DNA of 38,096 nt. Origin: a virus. Under the pieces are notes generated by a model that was given only the letters and a program-made list of their open reading frames with translations, made no database searches and was not told the origin of the DNA. The stretch covers positions 1 through 38,096 of IMG/VR virus record IMGVR_UViG_3300046777_001895, one strand, 5' to 3'. Positions 849 to 14,103 of the stretch are shown piece by piece (within the stretch, counting starts at the first letter, position 1; each line of letters starts with the position of its first letter). A program made the position numbers and the translations under genes.

Positions 849-1096
849 CAATCCTCCTGTTGAAATGGTTTGCCATCCGCATAGCGGCCAGTGCTGTTCG
901 ATTGAGATTTGATCCAGGCTTTGTCTTCGTCAGTGTGCTTTGGCAGCGGCGCCCAGAAGTCCCATCCGGATTCCGGGTACCAGACACCAACGCAGACGCC
1001 GCCATACAAACTGCGAAATAGCAGCTTGCAATTCTTCGGCGGCGGTATCTGGTCGATGCGCCGCCAGGTTGGTCTGAGTTCAGCCAGGTGTTGCAT
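848..1096 (-). CDS. Hypothetical phage protein, DUF551-like (82 aa)
   Basis: An aromatic-rich small protein with RRIDQIPPPKNCKLLFRS followed by GVWYPESGWDFWAPLP. This layout recalls DUF551-type phage proteins, which begin with a W-I/D-P motif and end with a W/F-W-M-P-L-P motif, but the match is by eye only. Function is unknown. The start codon overlaps the SSB stop (TGATG) and its stop overlaps the MazG-like start, so it sits in a tightly coupled operon between the two. Confidence 0.6.
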   Translation of the reverse strand: MQHLAELRPTWRRIDQIPPPKNCKLLFRSLYGGVCVGVWYPESGWDFWAPLPKHTDEDKAWIKSQSNSTGRYADGKPFQQED

Positions 1097-1530
1097 CAGA
1101 AAGGGATATCGTCGTCAAAATCAACGGAAGGCTGGCCCTGCTCGTTGGTGTAATTTTTCGCTGCTTGCGGCTTTTGCTGGGCCGGCTCGCTGCCATCATT
1201 CTTGCCGCCAAGGAACTCGAAATTACTGGCATTGACCTCGGTGGTGTACTGGTCCTTGCCGTCCTTGTCCTGCCACTTGCGCGTGGTCAGTTTTCCCTCG
1301 ACGTAGACCTTGCTGCCTTTGGTGGCGTACTGGGCGAATACTTCGGCGCCCTTGCCCCACATGACGACGCGGATCCATTCGGTGCGCTCGACCTTCTGGC
1401 CCTGCTGGTCCTTGTAATCGTCCTGACAAGCCATGGAGAAGTTGACGACGGTCTGGCCGCCCGGGGTTGATTTAGATTCTGGGTCACGGCCCAATCGGCC
1501 AATGCCTTGCCAGCGATTCAGGTTTTTCAT
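1096..1530 (-). CDS. ssb: Single-stranded DNA-binding protein
   Basis: A typical bacterial/phage SSB of 144 aa. The OB-fold begins MKNLNRWQGIGRLGRDPE and runs to about residue 108, with VNFSMACQ, ERTEWIRVVMWGKGAE and KGSKVYVEGKLTTRKWQDKDG all recognisable. A Gln/Ala/Asn-rich linker follows. The protein ends in the acidic tip DFDDDIPF, the peptide that recruits host replication and repair proteins. It coats ssDNA during phage replication and recombination. It lies next to a RuvC-like nuclease in the replication operon, while the YqaJ/RecT pair is encoded on the other early operon. Confidence 0.95.
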   Translation of the reverse strand: MKNLNRWQGIGRLGRDPESKSTPGGQTVVNFSMACQDDYKDQQGQKVERTEWIRVVMWGKGAEVFAQYATKGSKVYVEGKLTTRKWQDKDGKDQYTTEVNASNFEFLGGKNDGSEPAQQKPQAAKNYTNEQGQPSVDFDDDIPF

Positions 1531-2675: not shown

Positions 2676-2887
2676 TTGCGACGGTAGGAGGCGCGTTGTG
2701 GCAGCGGCTTTGGCTCGCTGTTGACCCCTGCATCGCTCAGTTTGCGATTCCATGTCTGGCAGGCTGGGCAGGTATGGCGTGTCACGACGTAGCGGTTGCC
2801 GTCGTACTCGGTTTGGCAGGTGCAGCCAAACACGCCGCTGGCCCATTCCCGCGCCGCATGGATCTCGGATTCGCTCAAGTGACTCAT
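2657..2887 (-). CDS. Small zinc-finger-like phage protein (76 aa)
   Basis: The protein has the pattern CTCQTEYDGNRYVVTRHTCPAC, two CxC/CxxC-type pairs with a histidine, which suggests one zinc-binding site. A basic tail (RASYRRKWRR) follows and could contact nucleic acid. The ATG overlaps the stop of the preceding replication gene by four bases. Function is unknown; it belongs to the replication operon by position. Confidence 0.6.
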   Translation of the reverse strand: MSHLSESEIHAAREWASGVFGCTCQTEYDGNRYVVTRHTCPACQTWNRKLSDAGVNSEPKPLPQRASYRRKWRRAA

Positions 2888-3633
2888 GCCGCGTCCCTGC
2901 CCTGTTGCTCACGCTCGCGGTCCTTGGCCTCGCACTCAGCGCGAATGGCGTCGAGGTCGTAGGTGGGAGATGGCGTGGTCAGCATGGCCTTGATGCCGGC
3001 AAGATTACGCAAGGCGTATTCGTTGCCGGAAGCAACCGCGCCCTCGATCAGTGGTTGCAAAGTTACCGGCTTAGCGCTTTCACATTCAGTCGTCAGCAGG
3101 TATTGCGCTTCGTCAGGCTGAATGTACCCAAGGCGCAATCCGTCACGAATGGTGTCCTCCAGATTGTCTTTCCTGGTCCCGCGCACCAGATTCCAATGGA
3201 CTGGGCGCCCTTGGATTTTTGCCTCATCCACCATGCGGTTGTATGTGTCCTTGAACGCCATGTGCGCCGCTACCCTATCGGGTTTGGCCGAGTTCATTTC
3301 CTCGGATACGACGGCCCATGCGCCAAGCATTTCGTCCGTGGCCCAGTAGCTCAATTCCTCGCAGGGCGTCCGCATCCATGCCTCATCCGGTCCAGGTCGA
3401 TGATGGGCAGGGTTACGGCGCTCGATCTGATCGATGATGTCGGCCGGCTTGGGCGGAAACTGTCCACGCTGCCGATCCGCGCAATGCGCATCGATGGCGG
3501 CCAGCACCAGCGGTAACGGGTATCCAGCCAGCACATGGAAAGCCTTGGCTAGAGCCCTAGCCGACAGCGGTTTGTGGAAATCCCAAGCCGCGCCAAACGC
3601 ATCGGCAAATGCCTCGAAGTCATGCTCGATCAC
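2884..3633 (-). CDS. Putative replication accessory protein, possibly helicase loader (249 aa)
   Basis: This protein directly follows the DUF1376 (lambda-O-like) gene and overlaps it by 14 bases, the position that lambda P or another DnaB-loading partner holds in many phages. The N-terminus (FADAFGAAWDFHKPLSARALAKAFHVLAGYPLPLVLAAIDAHCAD, given here in part) and FPPKPADIIDQIE resemble the N-terminal domain of phage replication proteins of the P/DnaT-like kind. I see no Walker motif, so it is not an AAA+ loader of the DnaC type. The start is a GTG. The loader role is inferred mainly from position. Confidence 0.55.
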   Translation of the reverse strand: MIEHDFEAFADAFGAAWDFHKPLSARALAKAFHVLAGYPLPLVLAAIDAHCADRQRGQFPPKPADIIDQIERRNPAHHRPGPDEAWMRTPCEELSYWATDEMLGAWAVVSEEMNSAKPDRVAAHMAFKDTYNRMVDEAKIQGRPVHWNLVRGTRKDNLEDTIRDGLRLGYIQPDEAQYLLTTECESAKPVTLQPLIEGAVASGNEYALRNLAGIKAMLTTPSPTYDLDAIRAECEAKDREREQQGRDAA

Positions 3634-4474
3634 GTATCACCTCGCCTTCAATCACGCTGCTCTTGTCGCCAAACAGCACGGCTTTTGCCCGTTCAGCGGC
3701 CTCCCGGTTTTGCTGCTCGACGGTTTTGTAGCCGCCACTAGTCTTTCGCGATGGTGATGCACGCGGCAACGGCCCTGATGGCGCATCCCGATCCGCGATG
3801 ACCTTGGGGACGATGGGTGCAAGGTAATTGGCCGGGATCTTCTCAGGGGGAGGTTTGTACAGGCGCGCCCTGGCAACGGCTTCTTGCGCTTCAGCATCGG
3901 TGAGTCCGGAAGCCACCCACTGGCACAAATCCGGGTGGGCCGGCGTGATGTCAACGCCACGTTCCCGCAGCAGGGCAGCTAACTGCCCACGACGATGCGC
4001 TTGCGACTCAGCCGGGTCCGGTTGGGGGGTAAGGGGGGTATCCCCACACTCAAGTTTGGGTATTGGGTCTTGGGTGTTGGGTAGCTCAGCGTTCGTTGAA
4101 TCTTCGCTAAGCGTTCGCTCAGCGTTCGTTGAGCGTTCGTTTGATGTGCGTTTCTCCAGTCTTGCTTTTACGCTGGCGGCGGCGGATTCCTTGGCTTTTT
4201 GCGACTTTTCGCTGATCTTGGCCAGTTCAGCATCACACCGATCATGACGCCAGCCTTCGTCAGTTTCATTGAAGAACTCTTCCAATATCGTGGCCACCAC
4301 TTCCACGTACTCGCGCATCCGGATGAGCCTTGCCACCTTGGCCGGCTCATTCGGTAATGACTGCTCCTGCATGTAATACAGGTCAAGCATTCGGCGATAT
4401 GCGATGTCTTCGAGCGGGTCCAGGTGGGCCGTGTGCGCGATGTAATCGCCAACATGGAATGGGTAGTAGTTCAT
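3620..4474 (-). CDS. DUF1376 (YdaU-like) phage replication initiator candidate (284 aa)
   Basis: The N-terminal 90 residues are a clear DUF1376 domain: MNYYPFHVGDYIAHTAHL, then LEDIAYRRMLDLYYMQEQ and GWRHDRCDAELAKI. DUF1376 proteins stand where lambda O stands and are regarded as replication initiators. A lysine-rich linker and a repetitive STNAERTLSED/STNAEL segment (about residues 110-130) follow. The C-terminal domain contains CQWVASGLTDAEAQEAVARARLY and KIPANYLAPIV, also common in this family. The repeated peptide is encoded by short tandem DNA repeats whose periods are not multiples of three, so the repeat seems selected at DNA level, as in lambda O. Confidence 0.8.
   Translation of the reverse strand: MNYYPFHVGDYIAHTAHLDPLEDIAYRRMLDLYYMQEQSLPNEPAKVARLIRMREYVEVVATILEEFFNETDEGWRHDRCDAELAKISEKSQKAKESAAASVKARLEKRTSNERSTNAERTLSEDSTNAELPNTQDPIPKLECGDTPLTPQPDPAESQAHRRGQLAALLRERGVDITPAHPDLCQWVASGLTDAEAQEAVARARLYKPPPEKIPANYLAPIVPKVIADRDAPSGPLPRASPSRKTSGGYKTVEQQNREAAERAKAVLFGDKSSVIEGEVIRDRA
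4056..4153. repeat. Iteron-like tandem repeats with G-quadruplex motif, candidate replication origin
   Basis: Two repeat families lie inside the DUF1376 gene. On the plus strand, 4056-4083 holds four perfect 7-bp units TTGGGTN. From 4088 there are 11-bp units with consensus AGCGTTCGYTN at 4088, 4099 (degenerate), 4110, 4121 and 4132, with a weaker sixth at 4143. The 7-bp block makes four GGG runs at 4058, 4065, 4072 and 4079 separated by 4-nt loops, a canonical quadruplex pattern. Two G6 runs lie at 4024-4029 and 4033-4038. Position inside an O-like initiator gene is known for the lambda origin; the origin role here is inferred. Confidence 0.6.
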
Positions 4475-4703: not shown

Positions 4704-4736
4704 CGTCAGCGCTCCTGAAGCTGATGCGTGATAGAG

Positions 4737-4761
4737 AGCCGGGGCCTCCACCCCGGCTTTT
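4737..4761. terminator. Strong GC hairpin between rha and the replication genes
   Basis: A 7-bp perfect stem GCCGGGG/CCCCGGC with a 6-nt loop. On the plus strand four T follow; on the minus strand TCTCTATC follows, a weak U-tract. All neighbouring genes are on the minus strand, so it most likely ends or attenuates rha transcripts before the replication genes. Confidence 0.5.
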
Positions 4762-4783
4762 GCTTGTTTGGCGTTTGCCAAGG

Positions 4784-5365
4784 TCACTGCGCCCTCACCC
4801 GGCAATCCAGAATCCGTCCCAGCCGTTGCGACGCGCCCTGGATGACCGCGGCGAGTTGCGCGGTGCTGAAGGGCAAATCATTCGGGCAGGCGACGGCGCG
4901 CACGATCTCGTCGAGAGACAGCACGTAGGCGTCGTTGGGGACGGGTTTCGAGGTATAGCCGCCGTTGCCGTCGAAACGGATCAGCAGGCGGCCGGTGGTA
5001 AGTGTGGCGAGCGGGTTGGTTGGCCCCCTGAGCGCCGCTTCCATGCGGTTGAACGCCTCGATATAGGCTTCCTTCCATTGCGCCGCCTTGGAGCCGGTGA
5101 AGCCCATGGCGAGGAAGGTGAAACCGTCGCGGGTGATCGAGTACGCCTTGATCTGGCGGACGCCGCCACGCGGCATGGGGACATCGGCTGATGATTGCGC
5201 AAAATTGCGCACACGAAATTCAGGTGAGCAATCGAGGTCATCGATTGCGCGGACGACATCCCGGTGAATCTTCCCGAAATGCTCGGCGATCTTGAAGGAA
5301 TTGGTGACGAGCTGACCGTTGACGATTTCAACGTGCGGACGGATTGCAGGCGTGTTGCTGCTCAT
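4784..5365 (-). CDS. rha: Rha family phage regulatory protein (193 aa)
   Basis: The N-terminal 110 residues match the pRha family (named from phage phi-80/P22-type regulators): VEIVNGQLVTNSFKIAEHFG, KIHRDVVRAIDDLD, then YSITRDGFTFLAMGFTGSKA and WKEAYIEAFNRMEAAL. Rha proteins are thought to regulate phage development or act as antirepressors. The C-terminal 80 residues (GRLLIRFDGNGGYTSKPVP and SLDEIVRAV) are a family-variable extension. The ATG at 5365 has GGAG eight bases upstream. Much longer readings upstream run through structured noncoding DNA and an opposite-strand gene and are rejected. Confidence 0.85.
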   Translation of the reverse strand: MSSNTPAIRPHVEIVNGQLVTNSFKIAEHFGKIHRDVVRAIDDLDCSPEFRVRNFAQSSADVPMPRGGVRQIKAYSITRDGFTFLAMGFTGSKAAQWKEAYIEAFNRMEAALRGPTNPLATLTTGRLLIRFDGNGGYTSKPVPNDAYVLSLDEIVRAVACPNDLPFSTAQLAAVIQGASQRLGRILDCRVRAQ

Positions 5366-6890: not shown

Positions 6891-7046
6891 TTACACAAAA
6901 AAATCCCGGCGCTCATGCGAGACGCACCGGGCGATAAGAGGAAGATCACTCGAGAGCAGACGATTGCCGCCGTCTGCCAGGGCGGGATACGAATAAAAAA
7001 GCCCCGCCGGAGCGATGCTCGACAGCGAGGTAGGCAAGGTACTCAT
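6891..7046 (-). CDS. Possible 51-aa ORF after cro (weak)
   Basis: An ATG overlapping the cro stop (ATGA) opens a 51-residue frame: MSTLPTSLSSIAPAGLFYSY, ending in ARCVSHERRDFFV. The ending recalls small Ash/Icd-type phage peptides. However the frame runs through two terminator-like hairpins, so codon use is constrained by structure. Coding is uncertain. Confidence 0.3.
   Translation of the reverse strand: MSTLPTSLSSIAPAGLFYSYPALADGGNRLLSSDLPLIARCVSHERRDFFV
6897..6931 (-). terminator. Terminator/attenuator downstream of cro
   Basis: On the minus strand a stem CCCGG..GCG with GC..CCGGG (one mismatch) is followed by A and seven U (6903-6897). A second, weaker hairpin GCUCC-GGC-GGGGC with six U lies just before it in the same direction (7013-6995). 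Two terminators after cro recall lambda tR1 and would let a read-through factor control the replication genes. Confidence 0.6.
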
Positions 7047-7264
7047 GCGGCGTCCCGCTTGGGGTTGCGGATGCGATCCCATGGGACAGCCGGGCAAAGT
7101 TCGCTAGCTGGAACGCCAAAATCATCTTCAATGACAGGCGCGTATTCGGGCGGGACATTGCCGCGACGTGTCCAGTTGTGGACGACTTGGGTCGAAATCC
7201 CAAGATGAGAAGCAAGAGCGCTTTGCCCCCCTGCTTTTTCGATGGCTTTGGTTAGACCGTTCAT
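7043..7264 (-). CDS. Cro-like (YdaS-type) transcriptional regulator (73 aa)
   Basis: A short HTH protein: LTKAIEKAGGQSALASHLGI, then STQVVHNWTRRGNVPPEYAP and a tail with CPAVPW. The order A-x-x-L-A-x-x-L-G-I-S-x-x-x-V-x-x-W is the classical Cro/YdaS helix-turn-helix. It sits head-to-head with the CI repressor and starts the leftward operon, so Cro is the natural role. The ATG at 7264 has no good SD. A possible -10 TAAGAT at 7277-7272 would start RNA very near the ATG. An open frame continues into the operators but is rejected. Confidence 0.85.
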   Translation of the reverse strand: MNGLTKAIEKAGGQSALASHLGISTQVVHNWTRRGNVPPEYAPVIEDDFGVPASELCPAVPWDRIRNPKRDAA

Positions 7265-7275
7265 GGAAACAATCT

Positions 7276-7327
7276 TACACACCATGTTTACGCAATGCAA
7301 TCACAGCGTGTATCAACAAGATGTTTA
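7276..7327. promoter_or_regulatory. Right operator region between cro and cI: two 15-bp dyads
   Basis: Two matching dyads are visible. 7276-7290 is TACACA-CCA-TGTTTA and 7313-7327 is TCAACA-AGA-TGTTTA. Between them CACAGCGTG forms a less regular partial match. The same consensus occurs twice at 10710-10748. A plus-strand promoter for cI may use TTTACG (7287-7292) and TATCAA (7311-7316), so both dyads overlap its elements. They also lie across the expected cro promoter. Confidence 0.65.
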
Positions 7328-11748: not shown

Positions 11749-12392
11749 TTATTCACAGTTGCCAACAGGGCAGTGAGCTTTGGTTTAAATCCAGGGCAGG
11801 CGTCATTACCGCCAGCATGTTCAAGACCGCCCGCGAAAAGCTGAAGACCGGACCCAACAAGGGTCAGCCCAGCAAGGCTGCTCAAGACTACGCCTTCCGC
11901 GTTGCCGTCGAATCCATCAGCGGTTTGCCGATGGATGAGGGATTCATCACCTGGGCGATGCAGCGCGGCATCGAACTGGAGCCGGATGCCAGGGCCGCCC
12001 ACGAGCTGCATGCTGGCGTCCACGTCCAGCCATGCGGTTTTGTCACCACCGATTGCGGCACCTATGGCGCATCAGCAGATGGCCTGATCGGCCATGACGG
12101 CGGCGCTGAGTACAAATGCTTGGTCAGCCCCGAGCGCATCCGTGACGCCATCCTTTACCACGACATCAGCGAATGGATGGATCAGGTGCAGGGCGGCTTG
12201 TGGATTACGGAACGCACCTGGTGGGACTTCTGCATTTACTGCCCCGCCCTCGATGGTGTCGGCCGCGCATTCAGCCGCTGGCGGGTGGAGCGCGATGACA
12301 ACTACATCGCTGCCCTGCGCGAGGATCTCGAAGACTTCAACCGCCTGGTGCTGGACTACCGCACCGCCCTGGCGCAACCGATTGCGGCCTAA
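11745..12392 (+). CDS. YqaJ-type viral exonuclease (215 aa)
   Basis: A lambda-exonuclease-like PD-(D/E)XK protein of the YqaJ family. Motifs seen are QQGSELWFKSRAGVITASMF near the start, MQRGIELEPDARAAHEL (E77), D112 in ASADGLIG, E122 and K124 in GAEYKC, and Q149 in QVQGGLWIT. It degrades the 5' strand of dsDNA ends to leave 3' ssDNA for the annealase encoded next. The start is GTG at 11745, coupled to the previous gene. Length matches the family. Confidence 0.85.
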   Translation: MIIHSCQQGSELWFKSRAGVITASMFKTAREKLKTGPNKGQPSKAAQDYAFRVAVESISGLPMDEGFITWAMQRGIELEPDARAAHELHAGVHVQPCGFVTTDCGTYGASADGLIGHDGGAEYKCLVSPERIRDAILYHDISEWMDQVQGGLWITERTWWDFCIYCPALDGVGRAFSRWRVERDDNYIAALREDLEDFNRLVLDYRTALAQPIAA

Positions 12393-13533: not shown

Positions 13534-14103
13534 ATGACCACCACCGAATCCATTTACCAAATCTTCTCCGGCCATCACGAAATGACATCGGGCCATCTGC
13601 TCAAGAAATGCCTGGGCCAGAAAGTGCCGGGGATCACCAATTCGAAATCCATTAGCAACGCGCTGACTCGATTGAAAAAGGACGGCCGCGCCGAAAGCAC
13701 CTATGACGCGGACAAGGGCTTGTGGCTGTGGCGCGCCGTCAAGGCCCAGGCTGGCGACCATTTTTCCGGATCGGCGGAAATGGTCACCAGTGAAGTTCCG
13801 ACTGGTGACGATTCCGTCGAACGTGACCCGGGTGAGATTGCGCCAGGGCGCGACGCTGCTGAGATTGATATGCCGGATCCGCTCAGAACCGTCACGACAC
13901 CCAATGTCGTGAATCACGACGCGGAATGTCGTGGCAAGCCGCGCAAGCCACGCAAGCCATACACCCCCAACCCGATCGCCGGCGCCTATTCCTACCGCGG
14001 CGCCCTGGTCATCAAGCTGGATCGCAAGGCCAGCGCCAGGAGCATTACGCTGAGCGCCAGGGACATGGCCATGCTGGTCGCCATTCACGGGAATATGTCA
14101 TGA
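13534..14103 (+). CDS. Putative winged-helix DNA-binding protein (189 aa)
   Basis: The N-terminal 70 residues (TESIYQIFSGHHEMTSGHLL, then SKSISNALTRLKKDGRAEST and KGLWLWRAV) look like a winged helix. A disordered acidic middle and a basic Pro/Lys-rich patch (RGKPRKPRKPYTP) follow. The end ARSITLSARDMAMLVAIHG looks like a small folded module. Function is unknown; regulation of phage genes is plausible. No good SD is seen before the ATG. The stop overlaps the next ATG. Confidence 0.6.
   Translation: MTTTESIYQIFSGHHEMTSGHLLKKCLGQKVPGITNSKSISNALTRLKKDGRAESTYDADKGLWLWRAVKAQAGDHFSGSAEMVTSEVPTGDDSVERDPGEIAPGRDAAEIDMPDPLRTVTTPNVVNHDAECRGKPRKPRKPYTPNPIAGAYSYRGALVIKLDRKASARSITLSARDMAMLVAIHGNMS

Follow-up and report, generated by a model that had tools for sequence, protein, structure and literature searches.

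A putative replication origin in the linker-coding part of a phage DUF1376 gene

Why would a phage gene carry two adjoining tandem repeats, with unit lengths of 7 and 11 bp, neither of which is a multiple of three? The question is raised by a virus record in IMG/VR, 38,096 bases long, the whole of which was analysed and which we will call the window. A first-pass annotation had pointed to these arrays inside a gene for a DUF1376 protein, had argued that protein repetition alone does not explain them, and had suggested a replication origin, with the origin inside gene O of phage lambda as the positional analogue. Both arrays exist as it described. On the minus strand, five tandem 11-bp iterons (4087..4141) are quasi-palindromic, of the A(A/G)CGNNCGCT type, and one is degenerate; on the coding strand they read AACGAACGCTC, AACGAACGCTG, AGCGAACGCTT, AGCGAAGATTC (the degenerate unit), and AACGAACGCTG. 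Directly after them come four 7-bp units (about 4056..4084, minus strand; NNACCCA on the coding strand or TTGGGTN on the plus strand), namely CTACCCA, ACACCCA, AGACCCA, and ATACCCA. Tandem Repeats Finder reports 4.9 copies of AGCGTTCGTTG at 4088-4141 and 4.0 copies of TTGGGTA at 4056-4083. Beside the 7-bp array (4024..4049) are the two G6/C6 runs that had also been noted (G6 at 4024-4029 and 4033-4038), with a GGGG..CCCC inverted stretch; this arrangement is seen in some relatives. We propose that the 11-bp units are initiator-binding sites and that the 7-bp units are an array for unwinding or single-strand loading.

The gene that contains the repeats (3620..4474, minus strand) encodes a protein of 284 amino acids, which we propose is a replication initiator. 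Residues 2-85 match PF07120 (E = 2.5e-26), and the profile score of 92.3 bits, against a curated cut-off of 30.1, makes the protein a member of the DUF1376/YdaU family. PF07120 was the one Pfam family reported at E 0.01, so that there was no match to the lambda O family (Phage_rep_O) at this threshold. Also, PHROG families annotated as "primosomal protein" match the protein (E = 4e-35 and weaker). The family match and structure prediction point to a winged-helix-like DNA-binding fold for the N-terminal DUF1376 domain (4220..4471, minus strand): the AlphaFold2 model has a mean pLDDT of 93 (residues 1-113), and the best VIA-align matches among solved structures are mostly winged-helix proteins, at middling Z scores of 5.0-6.6. 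A Foldseek search with the domain gave no significant match (E at least 0.27), a sequence search for solved relatives of the protein gave nothing meaningful, and the structure matches singled out no specific initiator as the nearest fold, which does not speak against one. We treat the predicted fold as a lead. The same replication region encodes a single-strand DNA-binding protein (1096..1530, minus strand; PF00436, E = 1.3e-35). (Elsewhere in the window, a YdaS-like protein is encoded at 7043-7300 on the minus strand (PF15943, E = 2.7e-15), divergently from an S24 repressor-like gene, and YdaS lies near the DUF1376 gene in the Rac prophage too. Within the open reading frame at 13534-14103, a 22-bp palindromic unit, TCACGACACCCAATGTCGTGAA, occurs twice in tandem at 13892-13933, looks operator-like, and is followed by a 9-bp GCAAGCCAC repeat.)

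As the 11-bp block translates into a peptide with a period of 11 residues (33 bp), protein repetition alone was not an absurd explanation before codons were shuffled. In 2000 protein-preserving codon shuffles, the self-similarity of the window gene at lag 7 (score 15.0, null mean 4.9, P = 0.0005) and at lag 11 (score 20.5, null mean 6.0, P = 0.001) was far above expectation, which bears out the claim that protein repetition is insufficient. These shuffles, which kept the gene's own codon usage, reached the two scores in at most 1 of 2000 trials, and when codons were drawn from the phage's own usage, neither score was reached in 2000 trials (P = 0.0005 for both lags). The three best tiles for lag 7 and the three best for lag 11, out of 446 window tiles, all overlap the repeat site. 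Also, the rare codons ATA (8% of Ile codons) and CTA (8% of Leu codons) sit where the 7-bp pattern demands them.

To see how general the repeats are, we gathered 280 DUF1376-domain loci by protein similarity, ignoring repeats, and reduced them to 129 non-redundant genes; the viral contigs concerned are in many cases incomplete. (The first 18 homologues, once aligned, proved too varied to be used in locus searches.) Far from being absent in close homologues, the repeats are present in nearly all homologues, and both blocks were found in 90 of the 129 genes as compared to 3 of 857 control open reading frames from the same loci. Lags 7 and 11 (with 14 and 22) rose above synonymous shuffles in about 60% of the genes, with a mean Z of about 4.4, and lag 6 did so in 22%. 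Self-similarity of the linker DNA was 13.2 at lag 7 (5.1 in synonymous shuffles) and 11.5 at lag 11 (4.9 in shuffles); lags 21 and 28, which are multiples of 7, were also raised, lags 12 and 18 weakly so, and the remaining lags were near zero. When the domains were grouped into 24 clusters at 55% identity, lag 6 or 7 stood out in 75% of the clusters and lag 11 in 54%, as against just 0-8% for lags 8, 10, and 13. A minority of relatives have an array with a period of 5 or 8 bp, or a weak array; for example, the iterons in the linkers of loci L010, L114, and L128 are followed by an array that repeats every 5 bp (of the GAAGA type in L010). Where the two blocks are both clear, which is the case in 78 genes, the short-period block always comes after the 11-bp block.

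Across relatives, the short-period ACC motif occurs in each of the three codon frames, and the resulting peptides differ widely (NTQDPIPK, NHKPITNNHKPI, PTPTPT, NTNTNT/RTITR, or QDQDQD/QNQNQ). Many of these linkers read as low complexity. The units are also degenerate: none of 42 7-bp arrays is made of identical units, there being about 3.5 distinct units per 5 copies, and around the A-C-C core, which is fixed by construction, the flanking A positions are 76-80% A.

A natural experiment separates the element from the gene. In L477 (DUF1376 gene at 4704-5300; PF07120, E = 7.6e-20) and in L523-L526, the DUF1376 genes have a short linker without the two blocks, and about 1.7 kb from the gene, on the strand opposite to it, are five 11-mers of the ATGCGAACGCA type with four TACCCAA-type units. 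(The set comprises four contigs, L477 and L523 being one and the same record.) The displaced element is non-coding, as no frame is open beyond 48 amino acids (65 on the coding side in L526), and one contig differs by one 7-bp unit, a change that would break any reading frame. Elsewhere, L533 carries the same iterons both in the DUF1376 linker and in the gap after ssb, and L055 has extra iteron copies upstream of its DUF1376 gene. The shuffles, the three codon frames, the degenerate units, the displaced non-coding copies, and the second copy in L533 all argue that the element is selected as DNA and not as protein.

Scans of IMG/VR with the patterns alone, blind to genes, led back to the same family. 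Among the matches listed for four copies of AACCANN, 74 of 80 loci lie in a DUF1376 open reading frame, on its coding strand, and three more resemble, by eye, DUF1376 genes truncated by the contig end. In the corresponding scan for ACCCANN, DUF1376 genes accounted for 44 of the 80 loci listed, and most of the others were simple repeats or lay in different genes. Taken alone, an ACCC array is therefore a less specific sign of the family than an AACCA array. With TGCGAACGC iterons as the pattern, 96 stretches were obtained; of the 80 that were read, 47 are in DUF1376 open reading frames, 43 of these in the linker. Many of the remaining stretches are in Lin1244_N initiator-like genes (the family was confirmed for two examples), and a few are non-coding clusters. 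The same iterons are non-coding at L606 5970-6060 (about nine units), L565 5048-5080, and L534 1642-1675, and no DUF1376 gene was found on the portions of these three contigs that were examined.

Within the genes, matches to each gene's own iteron consensus peak at nucleotides 300-400 (212 direct matches), with a second cluster at nucleotides 150-200, inside the domain-coding part (22 direct and 36 inverted), and about one match per 50-nt bin elsewhere. The window gene lacks the in-domain cluster. Across the family, the quasi-palindrome takes the forms AACGNNCGTT, TGCGNNCGCA, or AGCGNNCGCT. (By eye, an RMR(T/S)H motif of the domain accompanies TGCGNNCGCA sites, with the correlation between residues and iteron class being confounded by ancestry.) On the coding strand, the short-period arrays are 52% A, 35% C, 5% G, and 8% T. 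Their predicted duplex stability (nearest-neighbour) is −1.26 to −1.30 kcal/mol per step, as compared to about −1.45 in the flanks, and synonymous shuffles of the arrays are more stable than the real ones (−1.33 to −1.40 kcal/mol per step). No other stretch of the gene region is as unstable as these homologous arrays. Right after the array, paired runs of C5-7, often with a nearby G run, can be seen in the window (4024-4049), in the linkers of L009, L011, L013, L196, L261, and L263, which come from unrelated phages, and in ydaU of E. coli K-12. We considered such C-run pairs or hairpins as a third element, but although they are striking by eye in several phages, C5+ runs after the array are about as frequent as in synonymous shuffles (14 observed, 13.0 ± 3.2 expected), and we do not claim them.

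The genomic slot is that of an initiator followed by a helicase loader. We surveyed the gene immediately downstream of DUF1376 in 57 relatives and found a DnaC-like loader in 21, a DnaB or primase-helicase in 14, and a P-like loader in 5. (The three counts were made with separate families, so slight overlap is possible; together they amount to about 40 of 57.) In the window, the downstream gene (2884..3633, minus strand) belongs to PHROG 6028/10105 (phrog_6028, E = 1e-23), families that occupy this slot in about six surveyed relatives, and NCBIfam gives it no name. As the slot is held by a loader or a helicase in most relatives, we infer that this gene encodes a helicase loader. DUF1376 genes are also found in other settings: two circular DUF1376 records, to which no replicon type is assigned, resemble phage-plasmids or phage genomes in circular form, and the Acinetobacter plasmid NZ_CP026617.1 (L528 15900-17533) has its own RepM as well as a DUF1376 gene, followed by a gene for an ATP-binding protein. 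That region is possibly a second replicon or a prophage remnant. None of these plasmid-like records is thus a clean case of DUF1376 as the sole replicon.

Our comparisons establish an element that is constrained at the DNA level, occurs in almost all members of the family, keeps its two blocks in one order, is predicted to be locally unstable, and is separable from the gene. We consider it probable that this element is the phage's replication origin and that it lies, in a lambda-like manner, within its own initiator gene, in the part that codes for the linker. The repeats across the family, the invariant order, the several codon frames, the displaced non-coding copies, and the downstream helicase or loader genes give the lambda-like origin of the first-pass annotation strong comparative support. 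Its interpretation as a whole is partly supported, as the G-quadruplex part fails (see below). GC skew, which it had suggested as a pointer to the origin, is uninformative in the window, with no signal at the site. Also, there is no cluster of DnaA boxes at the repeat site, and TTWTNCACA occurs once in the whole window, at 11749, so the site does not look like a DnaA-dependent oriC-type origin.

We weighed four other explanations for the repeats. The first is that they serve the DUF1376 protein as an operator or as another non-origin site, with an autoregulatory, partition, or packaging role. The 11-bp units do resemble sites for a DNA-binding protein, and the extra copies upstream of the gene in L055 or after ssb in L533 would suit an operator. 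This explanation seems unlikely because the melting-prone A/C-rich array, for which an operator has no need, lies to one fixed side of the 11-bp block, because the main site is in the middle of the gene and not at a promoter, and because the genomic slot is that of an initiator and a helicase loader.

Second, the repeats could be protein-level or neutral, that is, a disordered linker with repeats born by slippage, in DNA without a function. The linker is indeed disordered or of low confidence in the structure prediction, and the low complexity of many linkers fits as well. However, the periodicity exceeds shuffles that preserve the protein and the codons, the units are degenerate around a fixed core instead of identical, the same motif yields unrelated peptides in several frames, the non-coding copy changes by a number of nucleotides that is not a multiple of three, and the order of the blocks does not vary. 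This explanation is already largely refuted, and we give it a small chance.

Third, a G-quadruplex in the GGG block could be the functional element. As the first-pass annotation had noted, the 7-bp block of the window does contain four GGG runs with 4-nt loops. But four CCC/GGG runs are present in just 11 of 117 family arrays (64 have only a two-tier pattern and 42 have neither), which rules out the quadruplex as a shared principle and makes it very improbable as the functional element. Finally, an RNA-level element in the DUF1376 messenger, which might be imagined from the element's location within the transcript in most relatives, can be practically dismissed because L477 and its relatives carry the element outside the gene and on the opposite strand, so that it is absent from that messenger.

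If the repeats are an origin, then initiation might proceed as follows. The winged-helix-like domain of the DUF1376 protein would bind the quasi-palindromic 11-bp iterons, which recur once per helical turn and would thus place the sites on one face of the DNA. The nucleoprotein complex would melt the adjacent 6-7-bp array, which is rich in A and C and poor in G and T, and the melted array would offer a stepped single strand to the initiator or to a loader. Finally, helicase loading would fall to the product of the next gene, whose counterparts in relatives resemble DnaC, P, or DnaB. This scheme of initiator binding, array melting, and helicase loading is a proposal based on sequence comparison.

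The nearest precedent is the origin in gene O of lambda and of Stx phages, which lies in the middle of the gene with iterons beside an AT tract, and in which extra iterons lengthen the O protein (PMC7466680). The DUF1376 element resembles it in lying within the initiator gene, in having tandem iterons next to an easily melted tract, and in being followed by a helicase loader gene. In contrast, lambda has iterons of about 19 bp that are imperfect inverted repeats, with an AT tract, whereas the DUF1376 element has 11-bp units and a 6-7-bp A/C-rich array, and its proposed initiator does not match the lambda O family (Pfam at E 0.01). What differs from lambda is the initiator family, the length of the iterons, and the short-period array in place of the AT tract.

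An origin, oriJ, is active in the Rac prophage of E. coli K-12 (PMC3945230). In Rac, the DUF1376 protein YdaU (E = 2.7e-26) is followed by the DnaC/IstB-like YdaV. Three TGTTCAAACA-like sites can be made out by eye in ydaU along with a short 6-bp array, the latter being all that Tandem Repeats Finder detects. We found no base-level position for oriJ in the open literature. Phage-inducible islands of Gram-negative bacteria (PICI) likewise pair an initiator with a matching iteron origin and have a melting site (PMC6092414), but their origin is 3′ of the initiator gene, with two sets of iterons flanking an AT-rich region, whereas the DUF1376 element is inside the gene and has two blocks on one side. 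Some proteins with a Lin1244/Lin1753-like N-terminal domain (PF14297) share TGCGAACGCA iterons, their position in the linker, and a SASKRW-type segment with DUF1376 proteins, although they belong to a different Pfam family and, by eye, have a 5-bp array of the AAAGG/AAAGT type after the iterons. (In L572, L579, and L605, PF14297 linkers have 11-bp TGCGAACGCA iterons, with the AAAGG/AAAGT array in some, so the architecture crosses family borders.)

In keeping with the earlier remark that the arrangement appears undescribed, we found no description of a DUF1376 origin in the open full-text literature under DUF1376, YdaU, oriJ, or nested origins. Nor did we find binding, unwinding, marker-frequency, or plasmid-maintenance data on any DUF1376 origin in that literature.

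At bacterial oriC, DnaA-trios are recognised in register. A bolder idea, which we put forward tentatively and which could well be wrong, is that DUF1376 and Lin1244-type proteins form a very widespread and unrecognised class of phage initiators with the origin in the linker, and that the 5-8-bp array of A/C- or purine-rich steps is a new unwinding element, a ruler-like track for single-strand loading that is recognised in register as the trios are. If so, the low-complexity linkers of many proteins of "unknown function" would be by-products of DNA sites.

On the origin reading, a large protein family that lacks an assigned function would acquire one, together with a mechanism, and a simple rule, using sequence only, would locate the origin of many temperate phages and prophages. 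Odd repetitive linkers would make sense as DNA elements that happen to be translated. With the displaced non-coding copy, the old question of why an initiator gene should house the origin can be put to a direct test. Finally, a fixed-step and easily melted array beside iterons would be a distinct origin architecture, to be compared with AT-rich tracts and DnaA-trios.
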